A stretch of 64,000 nucleotides of DNA. Origin: Xiphias gladius (lineage: Eukaryota > Chordata > Actinopteri > Istiophoriformes > Xiphiidae). Made by a program: the position numbers and the translations under genes. Shown here one piece after another: positions 721-24,025 of this stretch; within the stretch, counting starts at the first letter, position 1, and the number at the start of each line of letters is the position of its first letter. The stretch covers positions 20,580,829-20,644,828 of the forward strand of contig NC_053418.1 of assembly GCF_016859285.1 (NCBI RefSeq), given 5' to 3'. Under the pieces are notes generated by a model. It did no database searches. It was given only the letters and a program-made list of their open reading frames with translations, and was not told the origin of the DNA.

Positions 721-3700
721 AGGACACAAGAGTAGAGGAGGTGGGAGGGCAATATGAGATGTGAACCCTCTCATGTAAAAGGTAAATATTTCATGTTATT
801 TTCAGATGTATTAGATGCATTGATGGATTGTACCAGATTTTACCTGATTTCTGAAGTTTTTAACCTGCTTGTCTTCCATTTTCTTTTAGGGAGGGGTGAG
901 GAGAAGACAGGACACTAGAGTAGAGGACACAAGGGTAGAGGAGAGGAGAGGAGGCAGGAGGGCAATATGAGATGTGAACCTTGTCTTTTAAGAGGTAAAT
1001 ATTTCCTGTTATTATTTGATTTCATGCAGTGATCAAATGTACCTGTTTTTACCTGATTTCTAAAGTTGTTAACCTGCATTTTAACCTGCTTGTCTTCTTT
1101 TTTTCTTTTAGGAAGGTGATAGGAGAGGACACAAGGGTAGAGGAGAGGAGAGGAGGAGAGAGAGGAGAGGAGGGAGGGCAATATGAGATGTGAACCTTGT
1201 CTTTTAAAAGGTAAATATTTCCTGTTATTATCAGATTTCATACAGTAATGGATTGTACCTGTTTTTACCTGATTTCAAAATTTTTAAACTACAACCTCCT
1301 TGTCCTCCATTTTTTTTTGGGAGGAGAGAGGAGAGGAGGCGGGAGGGCAATATGAGATGTGAACCTTTTCTTCTAAAAGGCAAATATTTCCTGTTATTAT
1401 CAGATTTCATGCAGTGATGGATTGTACCTGTTTTTAACCTGATTTCTAAAGTTTTTAACCTGCTTGTCGACCATTTTTCTTTTAGGGAGGAGAGAGGAGA
1501 GGTGAGGAGGAGAGAGGAGAGGAGGCGGGAGGGCAATATGAGATGTGAACCTTGTCTTCTAAAAGGTGAATATTTCCTATTATTATCAGATTTCATGCAA
1601 TGATCAATTGTACCTGTTTTTACCTGATTTCTAAAGCTTTTAACCTGCTATTTAACCTGCTCGTCTTCCATTTTTCTTTCAGGAGGAGAGAGGAGAGGAG
1701 AGGTGAGGAGAGGAGAGAGGAGAGGAGGCGGGAGGGCAATATGAGATGTAAACCTTGTCTTTAGGTAAATATTTCCTATTATTATCAGATTTCATGCAGT
1801 GATCAATTGTACCTGGGTTTACCTGATTTCTAAAGTTTTTAACCTGCTATTTAACCTGCTTTTCTTCCATTTTTCTTTCAGGGAGGAGAGAGGAGAGGAG
1901 AGGAGGAGAGAGGAGAGGAGGCGGGAGGGCAATATGAGATGTGAACCTTGTCTTTAGGTAAATATTTCCTATTATTATCAGATTTCATGCAGTGATCAAA
2001 TGTACCCGTTTTTACCTGATTTCTAAAGTTTTTAACCTGGTACTTAACCTGCTCGTCTTCCATTTTTCTTTCAGGGAGAGAGAGGAGAGGTAGGGAGAGG
2101 AGGAGAGAGGAGAGGAGGCGGAGGGCAATATGAGATGTAAACCTTGTCTTTAAAAGGTAAATATTTCCTATTATTATCAGATTTCATGCAATGATCAATT
2201 GTACCTGTTTTACCTTATTTCTAAAGTTTTTAACCTGGTATTTAACCTGCTCGTCTTCCATTTTTCTTTCAGGGAGGAGAGAGGAGAGGACACAAGGGTA
2301 GAGGAGAGGAGGAGAGAGGAGAGGAGGCGGGAGGGCAATATGAGATGTAAACCTTGTCTTTAGGTAAATATTTCCTATTATTATCAGATTTCATGCAATG
2401 ATCAATTGTACCTGTTTTACCTGATTTCTAAAGTTTTTAACCTGCTATTTAACCTGCTTTTCTTCCATTTTTCTTTCAGGGAGGAGAGAGGAGAGGACAC
2501 AAGGGTAGAGGAGAGGAGAGGAGGAGAGAGGAGAGGAGGCGGGAGGGCAATATGAGATGTGAACCTTGTCTTTAGGTAAATATTTCCTATTATTATCAGA
2601 TTTCATGCAGTGATCAAATGTACCCGTTTTTACCTGATTTCTAAAGTTTTAACCTGGGACTTAACCTGCTCGTTCCTTCCATTTTTCTTTCAGGGAGGAG
2701 AGGAGAGAGGAGAGAGGAGAGGAGGAGGAGAGAGGAGAGGAGGCGGGAGGGCAATATGAGATGTGAACCTTGTCTTTAGGTAAATATTTCCTATTATTAT
2801 CAGATTTCATGCAGTGATCAAATGTACCCGTTTTTACCTGATTTCTAAAGTTTTTAACCTGCTACTTAACCTGCTTGTCTTCCATTTTTCTTTTAGGGAG
2901 GAGAGAGGAGAGGTGAGGAGGAGAGAGGAGAGGAGGCGGGAGGGCAATATGAGATGTAAACCTTGTCTTTAGGTAAATATTTCCTATTATTATCAGATTT
3001 CATGCAATGATCAATTGTACCTGTTTTTACCTGATTTCTAAAGTTTTTAACCTGGTACTTAACCTGCTCGTCTTCCATTTTTCTTTCAGGGAGGAGAGGA
3101 GAGGACACAAGGGTAGAGAGAGAGAGAGAGGAGAGAGGAGAGGAGCGGGGAGGGCAATATGAGATGTAAACCTTGTCTTTAGGTAAATATTTCCTATTAT
3201 TATCAGATTTCATGCAATGATCAATTGTACCCGTTTTACCTGATTTCTAAAGTTTTAACCTGGTACTTAACCTGCTCTTCCATTTTTCTTTCAGGGAGGA
3301 GAGAGGAGAGGACACAAGGGTAGAGGAGAGGAGAGAGAGGAGAGAGGAGAGGAGGCAGGAGGGCAATATGAGATGTAAACCTTGTCTTTAGGTAAATATT
3401 TCCTATTATTATCAGATTTCATGCAATGATCAATTGTACCTGTTTTTACCTGATTTCTAAAGTTTTTAACCTGGTACTTAACCTGCTCGTCTTCCATTTT
3501 CTTTCAGGGAGGAGAGAGGAGAGGACACAAGGGTAGAGGAGAGGAGAGGAGGCGGGAGGGCAATATGAGATGTAAACCTTGTCTTTAGGTAAATATTTCC
3601 TATTATTATCAGATTTCATGCAATGATCAATTGTACCTGTTTTTACCTGATTTCTAAAGTTTTTAACCTGGTACTTAACCTGCTCGTCTTCCATTTTTCT

Positions 3701-6700
3701 TTCAGGGAGGAGAGAGGAGAGGACACAAGGGTAGAGGAGAGGAGAGGAGGAGAGAGGAGAGGAGGCGGGAGGCAATATGAGATGTAAACCTTGTCTTTAG
3801 GTAAATATTTCCTATTATTATCAGATTTCATGCAATGATCAATTGTACCCGTTTTACCTGATTTCTAAAGTTTTTAACCTGGTACTTAACCTGCTCGTCT
3901 TCCATTTTTCTTTCAGGGAGGAGAGAGGAGAGGACACAAGGGTAGAGGAGAGGAGAGGAGGAGAGAGAGGAGAGGAGGCGGGAGGGCAATATGAGATGTA
4001 AACCTTGTCTTTAGGTAAATATTTCCTATTATTATCAGATTTCATGCAATGATCAATTGTACCTGTTTTACCTGATTTCTAAAGTTTTTAACCTGGTACT
4101 TAACCTGCTCGTCTTCCATTTTTCTTTCAGGGAGGAGAGAGGAGAGGACACAAGTGTAGAGGAGAGAGGAGAGGAGGAGAGAGAGGAGGCGGAGGGCAAT
4201 ATGAGATGTAAACCTTGTCTTTAGGTAAATATTTCCTATTATTATCAGATTTCATGCAGTGATCAAATATACCCGTTTTTACCTGATTTCTAAAGTTTTT
4301 AACCTGGTACTTAACCTGCTCGTCTTCCATTTTTCTTTCAGGGAGGAGAGAGGAGAGGTGAGGGGGAGAGAGGAGAGGAGGCGGGAGGGCAATATGAGAT
4401 GTGAACCTTGTCTTTTAAAAGGTAAATATTTCCTATTATTATCAGATTTCATGCAGTGATCAAATGTACCTTTTTTTACCTGATTTCTAAAGTTTTTAAC
4501 CTGCTTTTTAACCTGCTTGTCTTCTTTTTTTCTTTTAGGGAGGAGAGAGGAGAGGTGAGGAGGAGAGGAGCCGGGAGGGCAATATGAGATGTAAACCTTG
4601 TCTTTAGGTAAATATTTCCTATTATTATCAGATTTCATGCAGTGATCAAATGTACCTGTTTTTACCTGATTTCTAAAGTTTTTAACCTGGTACTTAACCT
4701 GCTCGTCTTCCATTTTTCTTTCAGGGAGGAGAGGAGAGGACACAAGGGTAGAGGAGAGGAGAGGAGGAGAGAGGAGAGGAGGCGGGAGGGCAATATGAGA
4801 TGTAAACCTTGTCTTTAGGTAAATATTTCCTATTATTATCAGATTTCATGCAGTGATCAAATATACCCGTTTTTACCTGATTTCTAAAGTTTTTAACCTG
4901 GTACTTAACCTGCTCGTCTTCCATTTTTCTTTCAGGGAGGAGAGAGGAGAGGTGAGGGGGAGAGAGGAGAGGAGGCGGGAGGGCAATATGAGATGTGAAC
5001 CTTGTCTTTTAAAAGGTAAATATTTCCTATTATTATCAGATTTCATGCAATGATCAAATATACCTTTTTTTTACCTGATTTCTAAAGTTTTTAACCTGGT
5101 ACTTAACCTGCTTGTCTTCTTTTTTTCTTTTAGGGAGGAGAGAGGAGAGGTGAGGAGGAGAGAGGAGAGGCGGGAGGGCAATATGAGATGTAAACCTTGT
5201 CTTTAGGTAAATATTTCCTATTATTATCAGATTTCATGCAATGATCAATTGTACCTTTTTTTTACCTGATTTCTAAAGTTTTTAACCTGGTACTTAACCT
5301 GCTCGTCTTCCATTTTTCTTTCAGGGAGGAGAGAGGAGAGGACACAAGGGTAGAGGAGAGGAGATGAGGAGAGAGAGGAGGCGGGAGGGCAATATGAGAT
5401 GTAAACCTTGTCTTTAGGTAAATATTTCCTATTATTATCAGATTTCATGCAATGATCAATTGTACCTGTTTTTACCTGATTTCTAAAGTTTTTAACCTGG
5501 TACTTAACCTGCTCGTCTTCCATTTTTCTTTCAGGGAGGAGAGGAGAGGACACAAGGGTAGAGGAGAGAGGAGAGGAGGAGAGAGGAGAGGAGGCGGGAG
5601 GGCAATATGAGATGTAAACCTTGTCTTTAGGTAAATATTTCCTATTATTATCAGATTTCATGCAATGATCAATTGTACCTGTTTTTACCTGATTTCTAAA
5701 GTTTTTAACCTGGTACTTAACCTGCTCGTCTTCCATTTTTCTTTCAGGGAGGAGAGAGGAGAGGACACAAGGTGAGAGGAGAGGAGAGGAGAGAGGGAGA
5801 GGAGGCGGGAGGGCAATATGAGATGTAAACCTTGTCTTTAGGTAAATATTTCCTATTATTATCAGATTTCATGCAATGATCAATTGTACCTGTTTTACCT
5901 GATTTCTAAAGTTTTAACCTGGTACTTAACCTGCTCGTCTTCCATTTTTCTTTCAGGGAGGAGAGAGGAGAGGACACAAGGGTAGAGGAGAGAGGAGAGG
6001 AGGAGAGAGGAGAGGAGGCAGGAGGGCAATATGAGATGTAAACCTTGTCTTTAGGTAAATATTTCCTATTATTATCAGATTTCATGCAATGATCAATTGT
6101 ACCTGTTTTTACCTGATTTCTAAAGTTTTTAACCTGGTACTTAACCTGCTCGTCTTCCATTTTTCTTTCAGGGGGGAGAGAGGAGAGGACACAAGGGTAG
6201 AGGAGAGGAGAGGAGGAGAGAGGAGAGGAGGCGGGAGGGCAATATGAGATGTAAACCTTGTCTTTAGGTAAATATTTCCTATTATTATCAGATTTCATGC
6301 AATGATCAATTGTACCTGTTTTTACCTGATTTCTAAAGTTTTTAACCTGGTACTTAACCTGCTCGTCTTCCATTTTTCTTTCAGGGAGGAGAGAGGAGAG
6401 GACACAAGGGTAGAGGAGAGGAGAGGAGTAGAGAGGAGAGGGAGGCGGAGGCCAATATGAGATGTAAACCTTGTCTTTAGGTAAATATTTCCTATTATTA
6501 TCAGATTTCATGCAATGATCAATTGTACCTTTTTTACCTGATTTATAAAGTTTTTAACCTGGTACTTAACCTGCTCTGTCTTCATTTTTTCTTTCAGGGA
6601 GGAGAGAGGAGAGGACACAAGGGTAGAGGAGAGGAGAGGAGGAGAGAGGAGAGGAGGCGGGAGGGCAATATGAGATGTAAACCTTGTCTTTAGGTAAATA

Positions 6701-9700
6701 TTTCCTATTATTATCAGATTTCATGCAATGATCAATTGTACCCGTTTTACTTGATTTCTAAAGTTTTTAACCTGGTACTTAACCTGCTCTGCTTCCATTT
6801 TTCTTTCAGGGAGGAGAGAGGAGAGGACACAAGGGTAGAGGAGAGGAGAGGAGGAGAGAGGAGAGGAGGCGGGAGGGCAATATGAGATGTAAACCTTGTC
6901 TTTAGGTAAATATTTCCTATTATTATCAGATTTCATGCAATGATCAATTGTACCTGTTTTACCTGATTTCTAAAGTTTTAACCTGGTACTTAACCTGCCT
7001 GTCTTCCATTTTTCTTTCAGGGAGGAGAGAGAGAGAGGACACAAGGGTAGAGAGGAGAGGAGAGAGAGGAGAGGAGGCGGAGGGCAATATGAGATGTAAA
7101 CCTTGTCTTTAGGTAAATATTTCCTATTATTATCAGATTTCATGCAATGATCAATTGTACCTGCTTTTACCTGATTTCTAAATTTTTTAACCTGGTACTT
7201 AACCTGCTCGTCATTTTTTCTTTCAGGGAGGAGAGAGGAGAGGTGAGGGGGAGAGAGGAGAGGAGGCGGGAGGGCAATATGAGATGTGAACCTTGTCTTT
7301 TAAAAGGTAAATATTTCCTATTATTATCAGATTTCATGCAGTGATCAAATATACCTTTTTTTTACCTGATTTCTAAAGTTTTAACCTGGTACTTAACCTG
7401 CTTGTTCCATTTTTCTTTCAGGGAGGAGAGAGAGGGTAGAGGAGAGGAGAGAGGAGAGGAGGCGGGAGGGCAATATGAGATGTAAACCTTGTCTTTAGGT
7501 AAATATTTCCTATTATTATCAGATTTCATGCAATGATCAATTGTACCTGTTTTTACCTGATTTCTAAAGTTTTTAACCTGGTACTTAACCTGCTTGCCTT
7601 CCATTTTTCTTTCAGGGAGGAGAGAGAGAGGACACAAGGGGGAGAGGAGAGGCGGAGAGAGGAGAGGAGGCGGGAGGGCAATATGAGATGTAAACCTTGT
7701 CTTTAGGTAAATATTTCCTATTATTATCAGATTTCATGCAATGATCAATTGTACCTGTTTTACCTGATTTCTAAAGTTTTAACCTGGTACTTAACCTGCT
7801 CTTCTTCAATTTTTATTTCAGGGAGGAGAGAGGAGAGGACACAAGGGTAGAGGAGAGGAGGAGAGAGAGGAGAGGAGGCGGAGGGCAATATGAGATGTAA
7901 ACCTTGTCTTTAGGTAAATATTTCCTATTATTATCAGATTTCATGCAATGATCAATTGTACCTGTTTTTACCTGATTTCTAAAGTTTTTAACCTGGTACT
8001 TAACCTGCTCGTCTTCCATTTTTCTTTCAGGGAGGAGAGGAGAGGACACAAGGGTAGAGGAGAGGAGAGGAGGAGAGAGGAGAGGAGGCGGGAGGGCAAT
8101 ATGAGATGTAAACCTTGTCTTTAGGTAAATATTTCCTATTATTATCAGATTTCATGCAGTGATCAAATATACCCTTTTTACCTGATTTCTAAAGTTTTTA
8201 ACCTGGTACTTAACCTGCTCGTCTTCCATTTTTCTTTCAGGGAGGAGAGAGGAGAGGTGAGGGGGAGAGAGGAGAGGAGGCGGGAGGGCAATATGAGATG
8301 TGAACCTTGTCTTTAGGTAAATATTTCCTATTATTATCAGATTTCATGCAGTGATCAAATGTACCTTTTTTTACCTGATTTCTAAAGTTTTTAACCTGCT
8401 TTTTAACCTGCTTGTCTTCTTTTTTTCTTTTAGGGAGGAGAGAGGAGAGGACACAAGGGTAGAGGAGAGGAGTGGAGGAGAGAGGAGAGGAGGCAGGGCA
8501 ATATGAGATGTGAACCTTGTCTTTAGGTAAATATTTCCTATTATTATCAGATTTCATGCAGTGATCAATTGTACCTGTTTTTACCTGATTTCTAAAGCTT
8601 TTAACCTGCTTTTTAACCTGCTCCTCTTCCTTTTTTTCTTTTAGGGAGGAGAGAGGAGAGGACACAAAGAGGAGAGGAGAGAGAGGAGGAGAGGAGAGGA
8701 GGCGGGAGGGCAATATGAGATGTAAACCTTGTCTTTAAAGGTATTTTCTATTATTATCAGATTTCATGCAGTGATGGATTGTACCTGTTTTTACCTGATT
8801 TCTAAAGCTTTTAACCTGCTATTTAACCCTCTTTTCTTCCTTTTTTCTTTTAGGGAGGAGAGAGGAGAGGTGAGGAGGAGAGAGGAGAGGAGGTGGGAGG
8901 GCAATATGAGATGTAAACCTTGTCTTTAGATAAATATTTCCTATTATTATCAGATTTCATGCAATGATCAATTGTACCTGTTTTACCTGATTTCTAAAGC
9001 TTTTATCCTGCTTTTTAACCTGCTTGTCTTACTTTTTTCTTTTAGGGAGGAGAGAGGAGAGGACACAAGGTTAGAGGAGAGGTGAGGAGGAGACAGGAGA
9101 GGAGGCGGGAGGGCAGTATGAGATGTAAACCTTGTCTTTAGGTAAATATTTCCTATTATTATCAGATTTCATTCAATGGTCAATTGTACCTGTTTTTACC
9201 TGATTTCTAAAGCTTTTAACCTGCTATTTAACCTGCTTGTCGACCATTTTTCTTTAAGGGAGGAGAGAGAAGAGGTGAGGAGGAGAGAGGAGAGGAGGCG
9301 GGAGGGCAATATGAGATGTAAACCTTGTCTTTAGGTAAATATTTTCTATTATTATCAGATTTCATGCAATGATCAATTGTACCTGTTTTTACCTGATTTC
9401 TAAAGCTTTTAACCTGGTATTTAACCTGCTTGTCTTCCATTTTTCTTTCAGGGAGGAGAGGAGAGGACACAAGGGTAGAGGAGAGGAGAGGAGGAGAGAG
9501 AGAGGAGGCAGGAGGGCAATATGAGATGTAAACCTTGTCTTTAGGTAAATATTTTCCTGTTATTATCAGATTTCATGCAATGATCAATTGTACCTGTTTT
9601 TACCTGATTTCTAAAGTTTTTAACCTGGTATTTAACCTGCTTGTCTTCCATTTTTCTTTAAGGGAGGGAGAGAGAGGACAAGAGGTGAGGAGGAGAGAGG

Positions 9701-11081
9701 AGAGGAGGCGGAGGGCAATATGAGATGTAAACCTTGTCTTTAGGTAAATATTTCCTATTATCAGATTTCATGCAATGATCAATTGTACCTGTTTTACCTG
9801 ATTTCTAAAGTTTTAACCTGGTACTTAACCTGCTCGTCTTCCATTTTCTTTCAGGGAGGAGAGAGGAGAGGACACAAGGTAGAGGAGAGGAGAGAGGAGA
9901 GGAGGAGAGGAGGCGGGAGGGCAATATGAGATGTAAACCTTGTCTTTAGGTAAATATTTCCTATTATTATCAGATTTCATTCAATGGTCAATTGTACCTG
10001 TTTTTACCTGATTTCTAAAGCTTTTAACCTGGTATTTAACCTGCTTGTCGACCATTTTTCTTTAAGGGAGGAGAGAGGACAGGACACAAGGGTAGGAGAG
10101 GAGGAGAGAGGAGAGAGAGGAGGCTGGAGGGCAATATGAGATGTAAACCTTGTCTTTAAGAGGTAAATATTTCCTGTTATTATCAGATTTCATGCAGTGA
10201 TGGATTGTACCTGTTTTACCTGATTTCTAAAGCTTAACCTGCTATTTAACCTGCTTGTCTTCCTTTTTTCTTTAAGGGAGGAGAGAGGAGAGGTGAGGAG
10301 GAGAGAGGAGAGTTGGCGGGAGGGCAATATGAGATGTAAACCTTGTCTTTAGGTAAATATTTCCTATTATTATCAGATTTCATGCAACTATCAATTGTAC
10401 CTGTTTTTACCTGATTTCTAAAGTTTTTAACTTGCCATTTAACCTGCTGATCTTCTTTTTTTCTTTTAGGGAGGAGAGAAGAGAGGACACAAGGGTAGAG
10501 GAGAGGAGAGGAGGAGAGAGGAGAGGAGGCAGGAGGGCAATATGAGATGTGAACCTTGTCTTATAAAAGGTAAATATTTCCTGTTATTATCAGATTTCAT
10601 GCAATGATCAGTTGTATCTGTTTTTACCTGATTTCTAAAGTTTTTAACCTGCTTGTCTTCTTTTTTTCTTTTAGGGAGAGAGGAAAGGACCTGATTTTAC
10701 CTGATTTCTAAAGCTTTAACCTGCTATTTCACCTGCTTGTCGACCATTTTTCTTTAAGGGAGGTGAGAGGAGAGGTGAGGGGGAGAGAGGAGAGGAGGCG
10801 GGAGGGCAATATGAGATGTGAACCTTGTCTTTAGGTAAATATTTTCTATTATTATCAGATTTCATGCAATGATCAATTGTACCTGTTTTTACCTGATTTC
10901 TAAAACTTTTAACCTGGTATTTAACCTGCTTGTCGAGCATTTTTCTTTTAAGGGAGGAGAGAGGAGGTGAGGAGGAGAGGAGAGAGGGCGGGAGGGCAAT
11001 ATGAGATGTAAACCCTTGTCTTTGGGTAAATATTTCCTATTATTATCAGATTTCATGCAGTGATCAAATATACCTTTTTTT
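721..11081 (+). repeat. Tandem array block A, about 51 units of roughly 205 bp
   Basis: The marker GCAATATGAGATGT recurs at about 752, 963, 1179, 1348, 1534, 1738 and so on to 10,998, with spacing 169-216 bp (mostly 190-213). Each unit has a nearly pure purine body of variable length (GGAGGAGAGAGGAGAGG...), a conserved segment ending GTAAATATT, the segment TTATTATCAGATTTCATGCA, four spaced ACCTG words, TTAACCTG, a pyrimidine run and CAG or TAG. Most length variation is in the purine body. Two subtypes occur: CCTTGTCTTTAG|GTAAAT and CCTTGTCTTTTAAAAG|GTAAAT. Reading frames across units are not maintained, so this is not a conventional coding gene. It may be a minisatellite/satellite derived from an exon-intron unit. 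Confidence 0.95.
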
Positions 11082-11581
11082 NNNNNNNNNNNNNNNNNNN
11101 NNNNNNNNNNNNNNNNNNNNNNNNNNNNNNNNNNNNNNNNNNNNNNNNNNNNNNNNNNNNNNNNNNNNNNNNNNNNNNNNNNNNNNNNNNNNNNNNNNNN
11201 NNNNNNNNNNNNNNNNNNNNNNNNNNNNNNNNNNNNNNNNNNNNNNNNNNNNNNNNNNNNNNNNNNNNNNNNNNNNNNNNNNNNNNNNNNNNNNNNNNNN
11301 NNNNNNNNNNNNNNNNNNNNNNNNNNNNNNNNNNNNNNNNNNNNNNNNNNNNNNNNNNNNNNNNNNNNNNNNNNNNNNNNNNNNNNNNNNNNNNNNNNNN
11401 NNNNNNNNNNNNNNNNNNNNNNNNNNNNNNNNNNNNNNNNNNNNNNNNNNNNNNNNNNNNNNNNNNNNNNNNNNNNNNNNNNNNNNNNNNNNNNNNNNNN
11501 NNNNNNNNNNNNNNNNNNNNNNNNNNNNNNNNNNNNNNNNNNNNNNNNNNNNNNNNNNNNNNNNNNNNNNNNNNNNNNNNN
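11082..11581. other. Assembly gap of exactly 500 N
   Basis: The run of N begins inside a repeat unit and ends in single-copy sequence. The round length of 500 suggests a placeholder rather than a measured gap, so the true length of array block A is unknown. Open frames drawn across it are meaningless. Confidence 0.99.
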
Positions 11582-12146
11582 CTTGGGAAAGCCTGTGAGT
11601 CTTGTTGGAGTGTTTCAGCGGTGATCTTAAAACAATGTTTGCGATGCATAATCTTTGTTGGCGTGTTTTCCATCATCTCTCATATTTGTCATATGCTTGT
11701 GCTCTCTCTAACTGTCAAAGATCCTGTATCCCCGAGTCCAAAGAAGACCTTATAAGTGCAACAAAAATATCACCCCCAGGGTCTTGATAGGCTAAGAGTA
11801 GCCTGTTGGGGGTTGAGATGGCTGCAGTACAGAGACAGAGGAGAGCACACATCTTTTTTGAGAGATGTTTGTAGTGATTGTCAAATATGGCCTTGGTCAT
11901 TATGAACAATACATTATCTGATGCAATATTTCTAATTTGGACTAGGGATGTTGGTGTAGCTGCCGCTTTCTTGTAAGCTGTGACCTCCAAACACACTTCT
12001 GATTGGATGTTACGCCCCTTATATTGCGTTGTTCAGTAGTGCAAATGACAGGAACACAGCAGGCAACAATTAAGTTAAATCCTTGTGTCTGACTGTTCCT
12101 TTTCCGAGCATATTTGTCATTAATCATTGTGATCACTTGAGAGCTA
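11582..12146. other. Single-copy segment between the gap and an array remnant
   Basis: About 565 bases of non-repetitive sequence interrupt the array. I see no protein-like frame, no clear transposon ends and no RNA gene. The array resumes directly at about 12,147 (ACAACCTGCTTGTCTTCC), so this is either an insertion into the array or sequence placed here by assembly next to the gap. Confidence 0.6.
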
Positions 12147-12650
12147 CAACCTGCTTGTCTTCCACTTTTCTTTTAGGGAGGGGTGAGGAGAGGAGAGGAC
12201 ACTAGAGTAGAGGACACTAGAGAAGAGGAGAGGAGGTGGGAGGGCAATATGAGATGTGAACCTTCTCAAATAAAAGGTATATATTTCCTATTATTATCAG
12301 ATTTCCTGCAATGATCAATTCTACCTGTTTTTACCTGATTTCTAAAGCTTTTAACCTGCTATTTAACCTGCTTGTCGACCATTTTTCTTTAAGGGAGGAG
12401 AGAGGAGAGGAGGCGGGAGGGCAATATGAGATGTGAACCTTGTCTTCTAAAAGGTAAATATTTCCTGTTATTATCAGATTTCATGCAATGATCAGTTGTA
12501 TCTGTTTTTACCTGATTTCTAAAGTTTTTAACCTGCTTGTCTTCTTTTTTTCTTTTAGGGAGGAGAGAGGAAAGGACACAAGGGTAGAGGAGAGGAGAGG
12601 AGGAGAGAGGAGAGGAGGCGGGCGGGCAATATGAGATGTGAACCCTGAGT
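12147..12650 (+). repeat. Array remnant, three units
   Basis: Three further units of the same repeat are present, with the GCAATATGAGATGT marker at about 12,247, 12,422 and 12,628. They carry the same AG-purine body-GTAAATATT layout. The last unit stops right after ATGAGATGTGAACC, at the edge of the tail-like sequence that follows. Confidence 0.93.
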
Positions 12651-12651
12651 G

Positions 12652-12720
12652 TTGGGCAACTGTAGCAAAGCAATTTTCCTGCAGGGATCATTAAAGTTTT
12701 TCTCAATCGGATTCTTTTGT
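12652..12720 (+). repeat. Retroelement 3'-tail-like fragment
   Basis: The words GCAATTTTCCTGCAGGGATC and ATTAAAGTTTTTCTCAATC resemble the tail shared by many fish non-LTR elements (GCAATTTCCC..GGGATCAATAAAGTTTTTCTGAATC type). Only the tail is visible. It sits exactly where the array stops, so it may mark an insertion point. Confidence 0.4.
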
Positions 12721-13085
12721 TATAACATTCTATAGATGATAATGATAATCTATTTTTATTGAAGAGGTTAATGTATATTAAGTTATATTTATTTTACGTT
12801 ATTCATTAATGTAAAGAGGATTTTCCATTGAAGAATTTGACAATTAAAATGACATTTCAACTGCAAAACATGGCCTTTTGCACATTTCTTATAGAGGATA
12901 ACAGTCTTGCATCAAATAGTGAATTCCACTGTATGCAGATTGTGTCATGCATGTCTGCACAGTGCTATGTTGTCGGGGTTGGCGTGGCCCGTGGTGGTGG
13001 GGTTCCAACTGAAGAAAACATCTCTGTAATTGTAATTGTAATTGTTTGTTGGAGAGCTATTTTGAAAGGTCTGGCTGCATCTTAG

Positions 13086-13457
13086 GCAGCACAGAGATTA
13101 GCAGAGATTGTACAATGGCAAGTTCCAGCACCGAAGTGTATGAAAGACATCGGCAAGTTTCCACTGTCCGTGAATGCAGCACAGAGCTGTGTGGCCAGAC
13201 ACCTGAGGAGATGTGTTGGGGAACTGGATGAGAACAGCTTATGGCTCTTCCTTTGCTTCTGTACCTGGGCTGATCCTCTGTTTGGAAGGGACATCACTGT
13301 CAACTTCACTGAAACTGGCAAATTTTGGTCTCATCCTCAAGCAAACAAATGTGGATGCTATCTCATTTAACCAATTAATTATCAGAACTATCCAGATCTC
13401 TGCAGTGATTTCAGTGTGATCCGAAACAGCTCAGTTTGGGTGATGGATATAGTATAA
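13086..13457 (+). pseudogene. HECT-domain C-terminal fragment (G2E3-like E3 ligase), with internal stop
   Basis: One frame reads an AEIVQWQVPAPKCMKDIGKF-type segment, then NAAQSCVARHLRRCVGELDE, then LWLFLCFCTWADPLFGRDI, then VNFTETGKFWSHPQANKCGC, a TAA at 13,368-13,370, and in the same frame NYQNYPDLCSDFSVIRNSSV followed by WVMDIV and TAA at 13,455. This follows the end of the HECT-like domain in fish G2/M-specific E3 ligase-like proteins (RHLRRYI..ELDE..LRLFLRFCTG, ..HTCG..L.LP.., the F..EF motif). An AG at 13,084-13,085 could be a splice acceptor. The stop inside the conserved block and the lack of the rest of the domain argue for a decayed copy. AATAAA occurs downstream at 14,265. Family assignment is from memory of the pattern. 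Confidence 0.6.
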
Positions 13458-14632
13458 ACCTCAAATTGCTCAGTGGGCGTGCATGTATTCTGGGATGTTG
13501 AAATTCACATGTCTTGTTTTCATTATACAAAAAGGCACAATAAAGCAAACAGTGTGTGTTTTTTCACCAAGATGTTGTTCAGATTGGTCATTGGTCATTA
13601 CATTATGTGGAGAAGCCAATCACAGTTTAGCTTTATTACAATACTGAATGCTGAAACAGTTTTGGTGGCCCAGTGCAATATTTAAGAGATGTAATGACGC
13701 CTTTCATGTTGGGTTCCTGCTGACGCCTGCCTTTGTTCATTGAACCGTCACGAGTAAAATCGATAACAACTTTGCAATAATTGCGTTTTGCAAAAAGTTC
13801 TACTTGATAAAGTTGAGGAATTTGAAAGTATGGAGGAAACACAGTTCACATTGAGCACCTGCCCATCCTCTGTTCTAAAGATTTTGGTTTTGATATTACA
13901 ATGGAATCTGAATCATTTGAAGTGTAGTGGCCTGCACTTTTATAGTTTTGTAGTTCTCGTTAACATCGAAACCAACTGTCAATGAGTGAAGCTTGGCTAA
14001 GCACTCCTGTCAAATCATTTTCAAGGCGTAAACCTGTCTTCTATGACAAAGAATCGTACTGTAAATGACTTTAGTGTGTACGAAGCACATACATGTGGAC
14101 CAACACAGTTTTGTTTTGCTATTGATATATTGTTAAAAATGCACCACATCTGTCAGAAGTGATAGTAAGGTTAGGAAGTCAATTTTTAGTGTCAAGTAAG
14201 GTTTTCAACAAAATTCTGTTACAAGTTTACAAGTTTGTCAATTATTTTTGTAAAAAACAATATCAATAAATAAAGAACTGCAGTGTGTGAAAGCAGAAAC
14301 TTTTTATTTCATTTGCTTATAAGTAAATGTTGAACCATATGAAAGCATTTTCAAATTGACCCTCTAGACTCTGTAGTTGATAGTCACACACAAATGATTG
14401 TGAGTGTCTCCTTCATGTAGTACAGCAATATTAAAAATAGTAATAGCTTTTTGTAATTCACAGATAATATCTATGCAAGCAATGGCTGTTTAAAGCTATT
14501 TTAATTTCCCGCATTTCTAAATAGGCCTAACCTGACTTACTTAATGGTATTTCAAATAAAACAGATCGCTGTGTAAGCGCAGACAGGAGTGAGAAAGGTG
14601 TAGCTCGTAGGCTAAAACTACAAAAAATGTAT
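13458..14632. other. Intergenic, AT-rich; only a polyadenylation-type motif seen
   Basis: No protein-like frame or transposon ends are recognisable. Overlapping AATAAA motifs lie at 14,265-14,274 on the plus strand, and TTTATT (AATAAA on the minus strand) lies near 14,302. The latter could serve the minus-strand ORF just upstream. Confidence 0.5.
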
Positions 14633-14959
14633 CTAATCATCACTTAGTTGGATGTTGATGGTTTTCCTCAACAGCTCTAAAAGGGCTTTACTGGGGAACT
14701 GTGCGCATTCCTCCACCAGTACCGCACAAAGATCAAATATATCTTCATCATCGCAAGGAACACAACTGAGAAACACACATTGTCCTTTGCACATATCCAG
14801 CTCCTCTTGATCAAGTGGCATGGCACAGTCCTCAGTGTCCCATAACTCTGGGATGGAGAACATCACATTTGGGTTGGACACAGGTCGGATTCGGTGACAT
14901 AGACATAAAATGTCTACTATAGTGAGCAAATGAAACAACATCATCACTGAATAAGCCAT
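14633..14959 (-). CDS. Hypothetical small cysteine-rich protein with a signal-peptide-like start
   Basis: An uninterrupted 108-codon frame runs on the minus strand from ATG at 14,959 to the stop at 14,633. Residues 1-21 (MAYSVMMLFHLLTIVDILCL then C) are strongly hydrophobic and look like a secretory signal peptide. The rest contains seven cysteines (residues 45, 57, 61, 66, 69, 78, 85), an acidic stretch (CDDEDIFDLC) and a possible C-terminal helix (SKALLELLRKTINIQL). I do not recognise the family. The composition is more protein-like than other frames nearby, and an AATAAA lies about 330 bases downstream on the same strand. It could be a single-exon gene, one exon of a larger gene, or a chance ORF. 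No function is assigned. Confidence 0.35.
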   Translation of the reverse strand: MAYSVMMLFHLLTIVDILCLCHRIRPVSNPNVMFSIPELWDTEDCAMPLDQEELDMCKGQCVFLSCVPCDDEDIFDLCAVLVEECAQFPSKALLELLRKTINIQLSDD

Positions 14960-16156
14960 AGTCGTGGGTCATTTAGTCGTTTTGAGTCATAGCTATGAGG
15001 TCCACACATTTAAATTGTATAGGCACCAGAGGGCACTTTGTCTCAGGGAAACAGTTTTTCCCCGTCGATTTGATGCATTTCTGCAAATGCGGTGATGCAG
15101 TGGTCACATCTTCAGATGCAGTCATATTCTTTTTATACAGGTCCCTTGACTTTTCCACACAGGTCTCATGTAGAAAACATGGTTTTAAAAGCATCTAACA
15201 CAAGCTAAGATTTCACTTGCTAGCCACAATAAGTCCTATCATATAGTCAAACTCATGTCCCAAATCTGTCACTGTGGTAAAAACTGGAGACTCCATAATA
15301 AGTATAAAGTCACATGTGAAGGACCACACCAAGGTAGTTAACTGGCATTTGCCAAAAGATGGGAGCACAGAGAGCAGCAAATATAGATATAGGCAATAAA
15401 GGTAAAGGCAGGTAAATGTAAGGCTGTGCATAATGTACGGTGGGAGAGCTGTGAGATGTGACATGTTATTCGAACGGACCTGAACATTCCACGGTCGCCA
15501 TGTTTTGTCTCCAGGTGCATCATTTGGACCCGAGCATCATTTAAACATCAACAACCCTCTAACGGTCAGAGAAACACGGTTTTTCTACTTCCAGTCGACT
15601 ATTTCTTTGAAAAGGAGACATCGACCTGCAACTTTTTTCCATCTCGACATCTACTAACGACCTACTGACATCGACGAGAGGAGTTTTTTTCATGGAAGTT
15701 GTGAGATTTTTTCACGTTTTAAACCCATGATGTTTATCCATGTATTTTGCTGTTGAGACTTTCTGAACCTCCGACATTCAATGTTGGCAATATTTTCAAT
15801 TACCAGTGTAAATGAATCAAAGGAGACGGACGGTTGACTCTTTTGACTGAAGTTTGAATAAGAAAGGCTGTTTTCTGGGTTTATTCTATACGGAGCGCCC
15901 CCTTGAAATCACGTTCAACTATTAAAGCATGCTGAGAAATATCAATAAAAATGATGTTTAAATATATACTTATATACATATGAGTGTTTAACACAAAACT
16001 TCACACTAAAACTGGTCAGTTTTATGTCACGGTGCCCCGACGAACATACACGGTTAACGGAAGTATAAAGCAACTGCACGATGAGAGTTTTCTAGAAAAA
16101 CTGTTTCCATTAATTGAATAAAGGTCAAAAATGGCGTATTAAAGTACTGGTTGCTG
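14960..16156. other. Intergenic, no gene recognised
   Basis: No convincing coding frame or paired repeat ends are seen. The segment 15,480-15,930 has an unusual balanced-composition stretch (GACATCGACGAGAGG, CACGGTTTTTCTACTTCC) that feels like part of an interspersed fish repeat, but I cannot define its borders. Confidence 0.4.
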
Positions 16157-16336
16157 AAATGAATAGTTTATTAACCGATTAGTCAACTGATAAAGTATTA
16201 AATGGCAACAATTTTGATAACTGACTAATTGTAAACATATTTTTTTTATGCACTAATGCCACAAAAAAAAAAAAATCATTCGTACCAGCTTCTCAAATGT
16301 GAATATTTGCTAGTTTCGCCTAGTTTCCTATCATTG

Positions 16337-16403
<67 letters not shown>

Positions 16404-16908
16404 AAACAAACCCATTTTCTGACATTATATACACTTAGCAATCACTTGAAGATGAAAGAAAACAATTGTCATAATATATAAAAATAATTGACAGAAAAAA
16501 ATGAAGCAATTTGATAAAACACAAATTTACAGAAAGTAATTAACAAGACATATAAACTAAAACAGATCAGGTCAGAAACTATATTTTGACACAGTGTCTC
16601 TCTATAAGATGGAGGATGGAAGACCTGTTCTTCAAGTGGTGCAAATTTCAAACAAGTTGATCAAATTATGTAGACCCAAATAATATGGAGTACACCTAGG
16701 GCTTTTGGGGTCCCTGGCATGTTTGACTGTAATAAAGCACTCAGACTCTTAGCAGGACAAAGTGAGATTAAGAAAATAACAGGACGTGCATGAATGACTC
16801 AAGTTATGTAATGTTTTCATAAATTCAGCTTCAAGCTCTTCTTCTAGCTCTTCCTCTTGCTCCTCTTCTACCTCCTCCTCTCGCTCCTCTTCTAACTCCT
16901 CCTCTAGA
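16157..16908. repeat. Duplicated flank, copy B
   Basis: This is near-identical to 1-720. Differences are a shorter A-run near 16,265, a longer TA microsatellite (about 16,338-16,396) and small indels near 16,440 and 16,540. The inverted pyrimidine module at about 16,828-16,908 again abuts the first purine body of the following array block. Confidence 0.9.
16338..16396. repeat. (TA)n microsatellite
   Basis: An almost pure TA run of nearly 60 bases. The paralogous position in copy A (about 187-213) is roughly half as long, so this locus has changed length since the duplication. Confidence 0.95.
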
Positions 16909-19900
16909 GGACACAAGAGTAGAGGAGGTGGGAGGGCAATATGAGATGTGAACCCTCTCATGTAAAAGGTAAATATTTCATGTTATTTTCAGATGTATTA
17001 GATGCATTGATGGATTGTACCAGTTTTTACCTGATTTCTGAAGTTTTTAACCTGCTGTTTAACCTGCTTGTCGAGCATTTTTCTTTAAGGGAGGAGAGAG
17101 GAGAGGTGAGGAGGAGAGAGGAGAGGAGGCAGGAAATATTTCCTGTTATTATCAGGTTTCATGCAATTATCAATTGTACCTGTTTTTACCTGATTTCTAA
17201 AGTTTTTAACCTGCTTTTTAACCTGCTTGTCTTGTTTTTTTCTTTTAGGGAGGAGAGAGGAGAGGACACAAGGGTAGAGGAGAGGAGAGGAGGAGAGATG
17301 AGAGGAGGCGGGAGGGCAATATGAGATGTAAACTTTGTCTTTAGGTAAATATTTCCTATTATTATCAGATTTCATGCAGTGATCAAATGTACCCGTTTTT
17401 ACCTGATTTCTAAAGTTTTTAACCTGCTATTTAACCTGCTTGTCTTCCTTTTCTTTTTAGGAGAGGAGAGGTGAGGAGGAGAGAGGAGAGGAGGTGGGAG
17501 GGCAATATGAGATGTAAACCTTGTCTTCTAAAAGGTAAATATTTCCTGTTATTATCAGATTTCATGCAATGATCAATTGTACCTGTTTTTACCTGATTTC
17601 TAAAGCTTTTAACCTGCTATTTAACCTGCTTGTCTTCTTTTTTTCTTTCAGGGAGGAAAGAGGAAAGGACACAAGGGGAGAGGAGAGGAGAGGAGGAGAG
17701 AGGAGAGGAGGCAGGAGGGCAATATGAGATGTGAACCTTGTCTTTAGGTAAATATTTCCTATTATTATCAGATTTCATGCAATGATCAATTGTACCTGTT
17801 TTTACCTGATTTCTAAAGCTTTAACCTGCTATTTAACCTGTTTGTCGACAATTTTTCTTTCAGGGAGGAGAGAGGAGAGGAGAGGAGGAGAGGAGGAGAG
17901 AGGAGGCAGGACGGCTAATATGAGATGTGAACCTTGTCTTTTAAAAGGTAAATATTTCCTGTTATTATCAGATTTCATGCAATGATCAATTGTACCTGTT
18001 TTTACCTGATTTCTAAAGCTTTTAACCTGCTATTTAACCTGCTTGTCAACCATTTTTCTTTCAGGGAGGAGAGAGGAGAGGTGAGGAGGAGAGAGGAGAG
18101 GAGGCGGGAGGGCAATATGAGATGTAAACCTTGTCTTTAGGTAAATATTTCCTATTATTATCAGATTTCATGCAATGATCAATTGTACCTGTTTTACCTG
18201 ATTTCTAAAGCTTTTAACCTGCTTGTCTTTTTTTTTCTTTTAGGGAGGAGAGAGGAGAGGAAAAAAGGGTAGAGGAGAGGAGAGGAGGAGAGAGGAGAGG
18301 AGGTGGGACGGCAATATGAGATGTGAACCTTGTCTTTAGGTAAATATTTCCTATTATTATCAGATTTCATGCAATGATCAATTGTACCTGTTTTTACCTG
18401 ATTTCTAAAGCTTTTAACCTGCTATTTAACCTGCTTGTCTTCCTTTTTTCTTTTAGGGAGGAGAGAGGAGAGGACACAAGGGTAGAGGAGAGGAGAGGAG
18501 GAGAGAGGAGAGGAGGCGGGAGGGCAATATGAGATGTGAACCTTGTCTTTAGGTAAATATTTCCTATTATTATCAGATTTCATGCAATGATCAATTGTAC
18601 CTGTTTTTACCTGATTTCTAAAGCTTTTAACCTGCTTTTTTTTTTTTTTCTTTTAGGGAGGAGAGAGGAGAGGAAAAAAGGGTAGAGGAGAGGAGAGGAG
18701 GAGAGGAGGAGGGCAATATGAGATGTAAACCTTGTCTTTAGGTAAATATTTCCTATTATTATCAGATTTCATGCAATGATCAATTGTACCTGTTTTTACC
18801 TGATTTCTAAAGCTTTTAACCTGCTATTTAACCTTCTTGTCGACCATTTTTCTTTCAGGGAGGAGAGAGGAGAGGACACAAGGGTAGAGGAGAGGAGAGG
18901 AGGAGAGAGGAGAGGAGGCAGGACGGCTAATATGAGATGTGAACCTTGTCTTTCAAAAGGTAAATATTTCCTGTTATTATCAGATTTCATGCAATGATCA
19001 ATTGTACCTGTTTTACCTGATTTCTAAAGTTTTTAACCTGCTTTTTAACCTGCTTGTCTTCCTTTTTTCTTTCAGAGGAGAGAGAGGGAGAGGAGAGAGA
19101 GAGAGAGAGGAGGCGGGAGGGCAATATGAGATGTAAACCTTGTCTTTAGGTAAATATTTCCTATTATTATCAGATTTCATGCAATGATCAATTGTACCTG
19201 TTTTTACCTGATTTCTAAAGCTTTTAACCTGCTTGTCTTTTTTTTTCTTTTAGGGAGGAGAGAGGAGAGGAAAAAAGGGTAGAGGAGAGGAGAGGAGGAG
19301 AGAGGAGAGGAGGTGGGAGGGCAATATGAGATGTGAACCTTGTCTTTAGGTAAATATTTCCTATTATTATCAGATTTCATGCAATGATCAATTGTACCTG
19401 TTTTTACCTGATTTCTAAAGCTTTTAACCTGCTATTTAACCTGCTTGTCTTCTTTTTTTCTTTTAGGGAGGTGAGAGGAGAGGACACAAGGGTAGAGGAG
19501 AGGAGAGGAGGAGAGAGGAGAGGAGGCGGGAGGGCAATATGAGATGTGAACCTTGTCTTTAGGTAAATATTTCCTATTATTATCAGATTTCATGCAATGA
19601 TCAAATGTACCCGTTTTTACCTGGTTTTAAAAATATTTCCTGTTATTATCAGATTTCATGCAGTGATGGATTGTACCTGTTTTACCTGATTTCTAAAGCT
19701 TTTAACCTGCTATTTAACCTTCTTGTCGACCATTTTTCTTTTAGGGAGAGAGGAGAGGACACAAGGGAGAGAGGAGAGGAGAGAGAGAGAGAGGAGGTGG
19801 GAGGGCAATATGAGATGTAAACCTTGTCTTTAGGTAAATATTTCCTATTATTATCAGATTTCATGCAATGATCAATTGTACCTGTTTTTACCTGATTTCT

Positions 19901-22900
19901 AAAGCTTTTAACCTGCTATTAACCTGCTTGTCTTCTTTTTTTCTTTAAGGGAAGAGAGAGGAGAGGACACAAGGGTAGAGGAGAGAGGAGAGGAGGAGAG
20001 GAGAGGAGGAGGCGGAGGGCAATATGAGATGTGAACCTTGTCTTTAGGTAAATATTTCCTATTATTATCAGATTTCATGCAATGATCAAATGTACCCGTT
20101 TTTACCTGATTTCTAAAAGTTTTAACCTGCTATTTAACCTTCTTGTCTCTTTTTTCTTTTTAGGAGGAGAGAGGAGAGGACAAGGGTAGAGGAGAGGAGA
20201 GGAGGAGAGAGGAGAGGAGGCGGGAGGGCAATATGAGATGTGAACCTTGTCTTTAGGTAAATATTTCCTATTATTATCAGATTTCATGCAATGATCAAAT
20301 GTACCTGTTTTTACCTGATTTCTAAAGTTTTTAACCTGCTATTTAACCTTCTTGTCTTCCTTTTTTCTTTTAGGGAGGAGAGAGGAGAGGACACAAGGGT
20401 AGAGGAGAGGAGAGGAGGAGAGAGGAGAGGAGGCAGGAGGGCAATATGAGATGTGAACCTTGTCTTCTAAAAGGTAAATATTTCCTATTATTATCAGATT
20501 TCATGCAGTGATCAAATGTACCTGTTTTTACCTGATTTCTAAAGCTTTTAACCTGCTATTTAACCTGCTTGTCTTCTTTTTTTCTTTTAGGGAGGAGAGA
20601 GGAGAGGACACAAGGGTAGAGGAGAGGAGAGGAGGAGAGAGGAGAGGAGGCGGGAGGGCAATATGAGATGTGAACCTTGTCTTTAGGTAAATATTTCCTA
20701 TTATTATCAGATTTCATGCAATGATCAAATGTACCCGTTTTTACCTGATTTCTAAAGTTTTTAACCTGCTATTTAACCTGCTTGTCTTCCTTTTTTCTTT
20801 TAGGAGGAGAGAGGAGAGGACAGAGGAGGAGAGAGGAGAGGAGGCGGGAGGGCAATATGAGATGTGAACCTTGTCTTTAGGTAAATATTTCCTATTATTA
20901 TCAGATTTCATGCAATGATCAAATGTACCCGTTTTTACCTGGTTTCTAAAGTTTTTAACCCGCTATTTAACCTTCTTGTCTTCCTTTTTTCTTTTAGGGA
21001 GGAGAGAGGAGAGGTGGAGAGGAGAGGAGGAGAGAGGAGAGGAGGCGGGAGGGCAATATGAGATGTGAACCTTGTCTTTAGGTAAATATTTCCTATTATT
21101 ATCAGATTTCATGCAATGATCAATTGTACCTGTTTTTACCTGATTTCTAAAGCTTTTAACCTGCTATTTAACCTGCTTGTCGACCATTTTTCTTTTTTAG
21201 AGAGGAGAGGACACAAGGGTAGAGGAGAGGAGAGGAGGAGAGAGGAGAGGAGGCAGGAGGGCAATATGAGATGTGAACCTTGTCTTATAAAAGGTAAATA
21301 TTTCCTGTTATTATCAGATTTCATGCAATGATCAATTGTACCTGTTTTACCTGATTTCTAAATTTTTTAACCTGGTACTTAACCTGCTTGTCTTCTTTTT
21401 TTCTTTAGGGAGGAGAGAGGAGAGGAGAGGAGGAGAGAGGAGAGGAGGCAGGAGGGCAATATGAGATGTAAACCTTGTCTTTAGGTAAATATTTCCTGTT
21501 ATTATCAGATTTCATGCAATGATCAATTGTACCTGTTTTTACCTGATTTCTAAAGTTTTTAACCTGGTATTTAACCTGCTTTTCTTCCTTTTTTCTTTTA
21601 GGGAGGAGAGAGGAGAGGTGAGGAGGAGAGAGGAGAGGAGGCGGGAGGGCAATATGAGATGTGAACCTTGTCTTTTAAAAGGTAAATATTTCCTGTTATT
21701 ATCAGATTTCATGCAGTGATGGATTGTACCTGTTTTTACCTGAGTTTTCTAAAGCTTTTAACCTGCTATTTAACCTGCTTGTCTTCTTTTTTTCTTTTAG
21801 GGAGGTGATAGGAGAGGAGGATACACTAGAGTAGAGGACACAAGGGTAGAGGAGAGGTGAGGAGGAGAGAGGAGAGGAGGCAGGAGGGCAATATGAGATG
21901 TGAACCTTGTCTTTTAAAAGGTAAATATTTCCTGTTATTATCAGATTTCATGCAATGATCAATTGTACCTGTTTTTACCTGATTTCTAAAGCTTTTAACC
22001 TGCTATTTAACCTGCTTGTCGACCATTTTTCTTTAAGGGAGGAGAGAGGAGAGGACACAAGGGTAGAGGAGAGGAGAGGAGGAGAGAGGAGAGGAGGCAG
22101 GAGGGCAATATGAGATGTGAACCTTGTCTTTTAAAAGGTAAATATTTTCTGTTATTATCAGATTTCATGCAGTGATGGATTGTACCTGTTTTTACCTGAT
22201 TTCTAAAGTTTTTAACCTGCTATTTAACCTGCTTGTCGACCATTTTTCTTTTAGGGAGGAGAGAGGAGAGGTGAGGAGGAGAGAGGAGAGGAGGCGGGAG
22301 GGCAATATGAGATGTAAACCTTGTCTTTAGGTAAATATTTCCTGTTATTATCAGATTTCATGCAGTGATGGATTGTACCTGTTTTTACCTGAGTTTTCTA
22401 AAGCTTTTAACCTGCTTGTCTTTTTTTTTCCTTTAGGGAGGTGATAGGAGAGGAGGAGACACTAGAGTAGAGGACACAAGGTTAGAGGAGAGGTGAGGAG
22501 GAGAGAGGAGAGGAGGTGGGAGGGCAATATGAGATGTAAACTTTGTCTTTAGGTAAATATTTCCTATTATTATCAGATTTCATGCAATGATCAATTGTAA
22601 GTGTTTTTACCTGATTTCTAAAGCTTTTAACCTGCTATTTAACCTGCTTTTCTTCCTTTTTTCTTTTAGGGAGGAGAGAGGAGAGGTGAGGGGAGAGAGG
22701 AGAGGAGGCGGGAGGGCAATATGAGATGTAAACCTTGTCTTTAGGTAAATATTTCCTATTATTATCAGATTTCATGCAATGATCAATTGTACCTGTTTTT
22801 ACCTGATTTCTAAAGCTTTTAACCTGGTATTTAACCTGCTTGTCTTCTTTTTTTCTTTTAGGGAGGTGATAGGAGAGGAGGAGACACTAGAGTAGAGGAC

Positions 22901-24025
22901 ACAAGGTTAGAGGAGAGGTGAGGAGGAGAGAGGAGAGGAGGCAGGAGGGCAATATGAGATGTGAACCTTGTCTTTTAAAAGGTAAATATTTCCTGTTATT
23001 ATCAGATTTCATGCAGTGATGGATTGTACCTGTTTTTACCTGATTTCTAAAGCTTTTAACCTGCTATTTAACCTGCTTGTCGAGCATTTTTCTTTAAGGG
23101 CGGAGAGAGGAGAGGTGAGGGGGAGAGAGGAGAGGAGGCGGGAGGGCAATATGAGATGTAAACCTTGTCTTTAGGTAAATATTTCCTATTATTATCAGAT
23201 TTCATGCAATGATCATTTGTACCTGTTTTTACCTGATTTCTACAGTTTTTAACCTGCTTTTTAACCTGCTTGTCTTCTTTTTTTTTTTAGGGAGGTGAGA
23301 GGAGAGGACAAAAGGGTAGAGAGAGAGGAGAGGAGGAGAGAGGAGAGGAGGTGGGAGGGCAATATGAGATGTGAACCTTGTCTTTAGGTAAATATTTCCT
23401 ATTTTTATCAGATTTCATGCAATGGTCAATTGTACCTGTTTTTATCTGATTTCTAAAGTTTTAAACTACAACCTCCTTGTCCTCCATTTTTCTTTTAGGG
23501 AGGAGAGAGGAGAGGAGAGGAGAGGACACTAAAGTAGAGGAGAGGTGAGGAGGAGAGAGGAGAGGAGGAAGCGGGAGGGCAATATGAGATGTGAACCTTG
23601 TCTTTTAAAAGGTAAATATTTCCTATTATTATCAGATTTCATGCAGTGATGGATTGTACCTGGGTTTACCTGATTTCTAAAGTTTTTAACTACAACCTGC
23701 TTGTCCTCCTTTTTTCTTTTAGGGACGAGAGAGAAGAGGAGAGGACACAAGAGTACAGAACACTAGCGTAGATGAGAGGTGAGGGGGAGAGAGGAGAGGA
23801 GGCGGGAGGGCAATATGAGATGTGAACCCTCTCATGTAAAAGGTAAATATTTCATGCTATATTAAGATTTATTAGATCCAGTGATAAATTATACCTGTTT
23901 TTACCTGATTTCTAAAATTTTTAACCTGCTATTTAACCTGCTTGTCTTCCATTTTTCTTTTAGGGAGGAGAGAGGAGAGAACACTAGAATAGAGGACACA
24001 AGAGTAGAGGAGAGGTGAGGAGACC
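16909..24025 (+). repeat. Tandem array block B, about 33 units of roughly 205 bp
   Basis: The same unit as block A, with the GCAATATGAGATGT marker at about 16,937, 17,317, 17,505, 17,722 and so on to 23,812. Units here more often have CTTGTCGACCATTTTTCTTT and GCTATTTAACC spacer variants and several carry AAAAAAGGGTAGAGG instead of CACAAGGGTAGAGG. Some units at 21,800-22,920 carry a longer purine body with ACACTAGAGTAGAGGACAC. The array ends abruptly at about 24,025 within a purine tract (GAGAGGTGAGGAGACC). AG acceptor-like and GTAAAT donor-like sites persist through the block despite variation elsewhere. Confidence 0.95.

Follow-up and report, generated by a model that had tools for sequence, protein, structure and literature searches.

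The window, the whole stretch of DNA analysed here, comprises 64,000 nucleotides of the Xiphias gladius genome (C19:20580829-20644828; labels such as C19, C23 and C196 denote contigs of the window's own genome assembly, and L labels pieces of these contigs). Its positions 721-24025 hold tandem units, in each of which a purine-rich exon of 60-120 nt is followed by a donor and an intron. A first-pass annotation of the sequence had described this region as one array of about 87 exon-like units. Indeed, 87 copies of the unit core word GGCAATATGAGATGT were found in 1-24100 with up to 3 mismatches allowed, 83 of them exact, and the exact core has no minus-strand copy there. These copies do not form a single array, however, but belong to modules that are split by an assembly gap of 500 N (11082-11581, with other sequence up to ~12140) and by a spacer (12640-16906). 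The searched genome (690.8 Mb, 1298 contigs) contains 251 matches to the exact 20-base unit word, 199 on the + strand and 52 on the - strand.

The tandem units carry usable-looking splice signals. Intron lengths are 115-118 nt in 64 of the 83 introns parsed in the window, the others measuring 103-119 nt apart from one of 182 and one of 189 nt. The donor is GT in 84 of 86 units, GC in one and AT in one. Acceptors of the types named in the first-pass annotation predominate (TAG 37, CAG 37, AAG 10, no AG 1; n=85), in a search that itself looked for AG. In an alignment to one consensus, both GT and AG were found to be kept in 72 of 80 window units and in 262 of 283 units over four loci; stretches outside 140-235 bp or with N were excluded, and some of the GT/AG misses may be alignment slips. 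Complete splice signals, which had been ascribed to every unit, are thus present in most units, not in all.

Splice scores were calculated with textbook weights, not with MaxEnt. In a two-unit stretch the highest-scoring exon had 21.4 bits, a value reached in 3 of 1000 first-order shuffles. On the + strand of array A (Table 1) the best 60 of 130 acceptor-donor pairs score 18.4-24.4 bits; in the control region, 24.1-64 kb, scores of at least 18 bits were obtained for 7 of 145 pairs on the + strand and 4 of 104 on the - strand. The minus strand of array A yielded 51 weaker exon-like pairs, the best of 16.4 bits, because polypurine bodies read as polypyrimidine tracts on the opposite strand. The commonest unit donor (58 of 86) scores 7.9 bits and 20 others score 9.3 bits, while a donor-like GAG/GTGAGG inside some purine bodies reaches 9.9 bits. 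About one third of the purine bodies contain GGTGAGG words (one column has T in 26 of 83; e.g. window 1683-1735), which might provide an alternative donor within the exon.

The arrays are part of a larger repeat, so that the tandem duplication is on two levels. The repeating module begins with a 5' region of 3.9 kb, continues with an array and ends in a tail of 396 nt (Table 1). The end of the spacer is a copy of the stretch before 721, and an earlier part of the spacer has its copy just upstream of the window. Positions 1-748 are 94.1% identical to window 16157-16935 and 98.8% identical to the copy at the end of C19; the piece upstream of the window is 98.6% identical to 13036-16156, and 12640-16935 shows 97.8% identity with the C19-end copy. 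The three 5' regions compared show substitutions in 37 of 3969 columns. The core at 12625 lacks a donor and is part of the candidate terminal exon.

Table 1 Features of the tandem modules in the window
Feature	Position	Strand	Remarks
3' part of module A 5' region	1..720	+	rest upstream of window, from C19:20577717
Pyrimidine tract directly 5' of module A first exon	642..718	+	24-bp repeats; then acceptor-like CTAG, 7.6 bits
First purine-rich exon, module A	721..781	+	ancestral-type end CCCTCTCATGTAAAAG before donor
Array A	748..11081	+	51 cores; units mostly ~190-217 bp (exon 60-120 nt, intron mostly 115-118 nt)
Assembly gap inside array	11082..11581	.	500 N
Last units before tail	12140..12639	+	3 cores after gap; placed in module A only by position after it, and the gap may hide another module
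3' tail, candidate terminal exon and transcript end	12640..13035	+	ATTAAA at 12690; 396 nt identical in window, C196 and C19-end copy
Module B 5' region, upstream of array B	13036..16906	+	98.6% to region upstream of array A; 97.9% to C196
CpG-preserving stretch, candidate promoter	15401..16300	+	overlaps block 15449-15959 common to diverged relatives
Pyrimidine tract before module B first exon	16829..16905	+	repeat
First purine-rich exon, module B, ancestral-type end	16908..16968	+	sequence
Array B	16935..24025	+	33 cores; stops abruptly inside purine body at ~24025

Further modules were found on C196 and C615, and a 28-kb contig at the end of C19, joined by a 500-N gap and read except for its last 258 bases, contains two arrays, one of 66 and one of 50 cores, which are separated by a tail and a 5' region. 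As far as sequence was read, the last 28 kb of C19 (C19:31009803-31037999) are modules like those of the window; this contig may belong in the window gap, and its placement at the end may be a scaffolding artefact. The units of the four arrays (51, 33, 66 and 50 cores) run head to tail and are homogenised, resembling one another both within an array and across arrays. When array A is matched against the last C19-end array, their first seven units correspond one to one, with 0-12 edits; no such correspondence holds for the middle units, as expected if unequal exchange acts in the interior. Lag analysis revealed little similarity between neighbours, slight in one of the four arrays. The surroundings of the arrays are gene-like: the 5' region and, at the three places with a visible end, the 396-nt tail stand in fixed position. 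The three copies of this tail are identical over their whole length, compared to a difference of ~1-2% among the 5' regions; its end resembles the tails of fish long interspersed nuclear elements. An open reading frame (ORF) in the module B 5' region, 14636-14968(-), was rejected as a gene, because the other two copies of the module have a different frame at both of its ends and it has no Pfam match.

Outside the C19 family the best matches to the unit are of 78-79% on C323, C23 and C11, and of 76-77% on C1034, C1036, C197 and C604. The 5' blocks occur in the same order in C23, C323, C11 and C197 at 69-85%. No homogenisation is seen in the relatives on C23, C323 and C11, where a common promoter-like block is followed by a few purine-rich exons with similar ends and with introns that are only partly alike. 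By eye, four of the C23 donors read AAAAG/GTAAATAT and one AAAAG/GTAACTAT; the acceptors are TTTTATTTTTAG (twice), TTTTGTTTTAG and TTCTTCAAG (once each), with one candidate place lacking AG after the T run, and a last acceptor-like TTTGCTTTGCAG is followed ~320 nt further on by AATAAA. The C323 copies of the C23 locus are 95-96% identical in the exon stretch, with values of 83-99% for other long pieces, and homology between the C23 and C323 copies is near-continuous over ~8.7 kb. C11 is ~71-77% alike over the exon stretch, with several borders kept. The arrays and these gene-like loci have a common origin. The suggestion of the first-pass annotation that the array could be a satellite derived from a single exon and its intron is well supported by the non-homogenised relatives, in which the same exon type stands singly or in a few copies.

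The ends of the exons point to the direction of this change. The exon end GTGAACCCTCTCAYRTAAAAGGTAA has 114 genome matches; among the matches listed are C11, C23, C323, C1034, C1036, C197 and C604, and within the C19 family the first unit of the modules (twice in the window, and at the C19 end, on C196 and on C615) together with the last unit of array B. Inside the C19 arrays most units have a changed end, CTTGTCTTTAG or CTTGTCTTTTAAAAG. The ancestral-type end at the module starts and the changed end inside the arrays suggest that the array is derived, with a first exon that would be ancestral in type.

In C23 a Ser-rich ORF begins right after an acceptor-like CTTCAG and measures 308 amino acids from the ATG (L049:3366-4289); its counterpart in the C323b copy has 556 amino acids, in C323a the frame is changed at 276 amino acids, and the repeat tract lengths differ among the C23/C323 copies (L049, L048, L047). 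The start of this ORF, MEQ.Y, is kept in C197 and C1036 as a remnant of 19-22 amino acids. The window modules retain a leader tract (642-718 and 16829-16905) that matches the C23 Ser-rich ORF in place and order, with 85.7% identity over 77 nt. Together with the CTAG behind it, this tract could serve as polypyrimidine tract and acceptor. As RNA, leader and first exon (16840-16968) are predicted to fold into a strong hairpin (z = -3.4; none of 200 shuffles folded as well), and such pairing of the pyrimidine tract against the purine exon could hide the first acceptor.

Upstream of the leader, the ratio of observed to expected CpG is 0.95-1.12 in the four 300-bp windows starting at 15401-16001, compared to 0-0.58 in the other 18 (from 12601). 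The block within this stretch is 69-77% identical to C23, C323, C197 and C11. The CpG ratio and the shared block make the region a putative promoter. The C23 version of the block has 40 genome matches on 23 contigs, 21 of which are to a short core only. An 89-nt core of the block recurs every 6.4-8.6 kb on C276 and C275, a spacing that suggests another tandemly amplified family with this core, and also occurs on C22 and other contigs.

A second branch of arrays was found on C1036, C197, C604 and C1034, with units of ~176 bp that are 68-78% identical to the window unit (blastn pieces). On C1036 the order is promoter block, array and GLO1 exons 2-6; the preceding module has only exons 2-3 and part of a later exon (numbering after the human gene). 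GLO1 pieces, some of them incomplete, lie at six places along this 77-kb contig and also on C197, C604 and C1035, the last being known from its GLO1 pieces only; none were seen on the 6-kb contig C1034. C4 carries a separate, diverged GLO1. In the window GLO1 was not found in a search with the human protein. Donors of the GLO1-type arrays, read in 146 of 149 cores examined, are GT in 96, AT in 46, AC in 3 and GA in 1; the acceptor count, 37/137, hangs on a rough pattern and was not relied on. The exon-intron unit of the gene-like family thus apparently was amplified twice, in the C19 branch and in the GLO1 branch. A literature search on GLO1 tandems in teleosts yielded no matching paper.

The window arrays are best explained as gene-derived tandem exon arrays that probably still lie within a transcription unit. 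According to this explanation an ancestral gene-like family would have had a promoter-like block, an exon with the Ser-rich ORF and a few purine-rich exons ending in CCCTCTCATGTAAAAG before GTAAAT. In the C19 lineage one such exon with its ~117-nt intron would have been multiplied by unequal exchange or replication slippage into blocks of ~33-66 units. The whole module of 5' region, array and 396-nt tail was itself duplicated in tandem. RNA polymerase II would read the array toward the tail, and splicing of many of the units may yield a long non-coding RNA rich in purines. The first-pass annotation had raised a long non-coding transcript of dozens of tiny exons as one alternative, and this is possible because the promoter-like 5' region and the 3' tail recur along with the module. 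Most probably the array persists by tolerance and homogenisation, not by a need for each exon.

Selection on the splice dinucleotides was considered and rejected. For 283 units from the four loci, rare changes, defined as those seen in at most 3 units and counted with a unit cut that does not look at the borders, amount per site to 4.0 at the donor GT and 3.5 at the acceptor AG, while the intron has 1.29 and the exon 3' block 0.43. An earlier count with 192 units gave 2.5 for both GT and AG, 0.83 for the intron interior, 0.64 for the exon 3' block, 1.40 for the branch zone, 2.14 for the first seven exon bases and 0.75 for donor positions +3 to +6. A first Fisher test (fewer GT/AG changes than intron, p = 2e-7; versus exon core p = 0.08) was set aside because its acceptor search required AG and variants shared between units were counted repeatedly. 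At the level of single units no protection of GT and AG is visible, and no constraint on these splice dinucleotides was detectable. The statement in the first-pass annotation that both splice borders persist while the bodies vary is not borne out by these counts for GT and AG, and the per-position comparison that it had proposed found GT and AG no more conserved than their neighbours, which is largely the outcome it had named as speaking against its view on the sequence side. The AG of the AG-GT donor border that it had described, the last two exon bases, showed zero changes in 192 units. In C852 (30 units), departures were seen in 8/57 cells of the donor GT (14%), 3/58 of the acceptor (5.2%) and 152/1870 of the intron interior (8.1%). 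Border protection is mildly indicated by the C852 acceptor and by the two unchanging bases at the exon end. The exon 3' block is the most conserved part of the unit, which may reflect constraint, gene conversion or partly the choice of units, as these were picked by the exon core (at most 3 mismatches), which may lower the change count of this block.

Several of these and other observations weigh against the gene-derived explanation. GT and AG carry more, not fewer, rare changes than the intron or the exon block, and in C852 it is the donor, not the acceptor, that exceeds the intron change rate. No strand asymmetry hinting at germline transcription was seen (A>G 14 versus T>C 18 rare changes), and a spliced exon-exon retrocopy, searched for with one exact junction pattern, had 0 genome matches. 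Splice borders are partly lost in C11, and single ones in C23 and C323b (by eye). CpG is kept less in the relatives: the ratio is 0.59-0.75 in the C23 block, 0.61-0.94 in C197 and 0.38-0.49 in the C11 block, being high in C11 only further upstream of the block. Finally, the C11 relative seemingly is flanked by inverted repeats, which could be explained by a transposon origin.

The main rival is an inert satellite, whose splice words would be relics of the exon from which it arose, maintained by homogenisation, with no useful transcription or splicing of the array. This is a real possibility, though a somewhat doubtful one; it disputes only the inferred steps of the gene-derived explanation, so that the two assessments overlap. 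It would account for GT and AG changing no less often than the remaining sites (for the donor alone in C852), for the absent junction pattern and for the GLO1-type arrays, which were amplified even though 50 of 146 units had lost the GT donor; it accounts less easily for a promoter-like stretch and tail that repeat with the modules, for the units that have kept both dinucleotides and for the invariant last exon bases. A non-autonomous transposable element with an internal tandem repeat, carrying promoter and array together, would explain the many matches of the C23 promoter block, more than half of which are to the short core, and the C11 copy, which seemingly lies between long inverted repeats of ~2 kb (L050:1-2200 and 6734-9908, with the same ORFs in opposite directions; not aligned). 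Such an element is unlikely, since many copies are tandem modules, the C23/C323 copies are near-continuously homologous over a long stretch and the GLO1 branch holds ordinary gene exons.

The unit composition brings in further alternatives. GGAGA is an SRSF1-type word, and it occurs 4.75 times per exon versus 0.012 times per intron (GGA 9.1 versus 0.18), so that the purine-rich exons might titrate SR proteins as a splicing-factor sink or architectural RNA, like HSATIII RNA under stress. This suggestion, which follows from motif density, is unlikely, slightly more so than a transposable element; the purine bodies are the most length-variable part of the unit and simple slippage explains their composition. 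A wider form of it is comparably speculative: one purine-rich exon, amplified twice independently, could have created transcription units in which every module carries 30-66 or more near-identical exons and every cluster many modules, and whose kilobases-long spliced GGAGA-rich RNA would be a dose-variable SR-protein reservoir. The layout of tandem exon-intron units with near-constant introns is that of SNORD115/116 (PMC11608373), and a host gene with introns that release small RNAs, either small nucleolar RNAs (snoRNAs) or microRNAs, like SNHG14, was considered. It is very improbable and was discarded: no Rfam match at gathering score was found in the whole window, three matches in 12100-18000 lying far below this score, and the consensus intron folds no better than shuffles (z = 0.55). 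Least probable of all are protein-coding repeat exons. The upstream ORF after CTTCAG in C23 and C323b would fit a coding gene, but in the window the Ser-rich tract is cut to ~77 nt, and the exons are spread over all three length phases (34/29/21 of 84 in the window; 46/43/24 of 113 at the C19 end, where three exons of 176-191 nt probably were mis-parsed). The units have no coding phase and are therefore not coding.

As in NBPF/Olduvai, nebulin and titin PEVK, an exon-intron unit has been expanded within a gene-like context. The repeat exons of those genes keep the reading phase, in contrast to the window exons. HSATIII is a short GGAAU-type satellite without exon-intron units; the window units combine exon and intron, GGAAT has a count of 0 in 84 window exons, and the window array is known from sequence alone. 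The two, HSATIII being the satellite of nuclear stress bodies (PMC10505914; PMC7151548), share a tandem purine-rich repeat that could bind SR proteins. SNHG14 is described as a long non-coding unit of human 15q11-q13 with the SNORD115 and SNORD116 clusters of 48 and 29 tandem introns (PMC11608373), and the window resembles it in its dozens of tandem exon-intron units. However, the SNHG14 introns encode box C/D-like snoRNAs, while the window intron is unstructured and has no Rfam match; moreover, the window unit is of ~0.2 kb with polypurine exons, and SNHG14 is known to be transcribed whereas the window array has been read as DNA only. Amplification of existing sequence into arrays has also been reported for tandem repeats from retrotransposons (PMC7004042) and for CharSat01-52 in Characiformes (PMC8210747). 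Unlike in those satellites, the repeat unit of the window combines a complete exon with its intron, and its array has remained within a gene-like module that is itself duplicated.

Both non-coding host genes built of tandem exon-intron units (SNHG14) and satellites derived from other sequence were already known. No description of a polypurine exon array of this kind was found in the literature searched, which is no proof of absence. The locus presents a satellite caught near its source, with low-copy gene-like loci, two array branches and varied splice-site decay within one genome. It raises the questions whether the spliceosome can pair and correctly join dozens of near-identical neighbouring exons, and whether splicing competence influences which repeat units spread. 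The GLO1 branch shows such an array sitting upstream of ordinary enzyme-gene exons and amplified together with them.

To the right of the arrays, in window 30519-61642, a PPP2R2A-like exon, a BNIP3-family exon and a DPYSL2-like exon were found. The same stretch holds a piece of a rhodopsin-type receptor, with a 7tm_1 match below the cut-off, which looks like ADRA1A.

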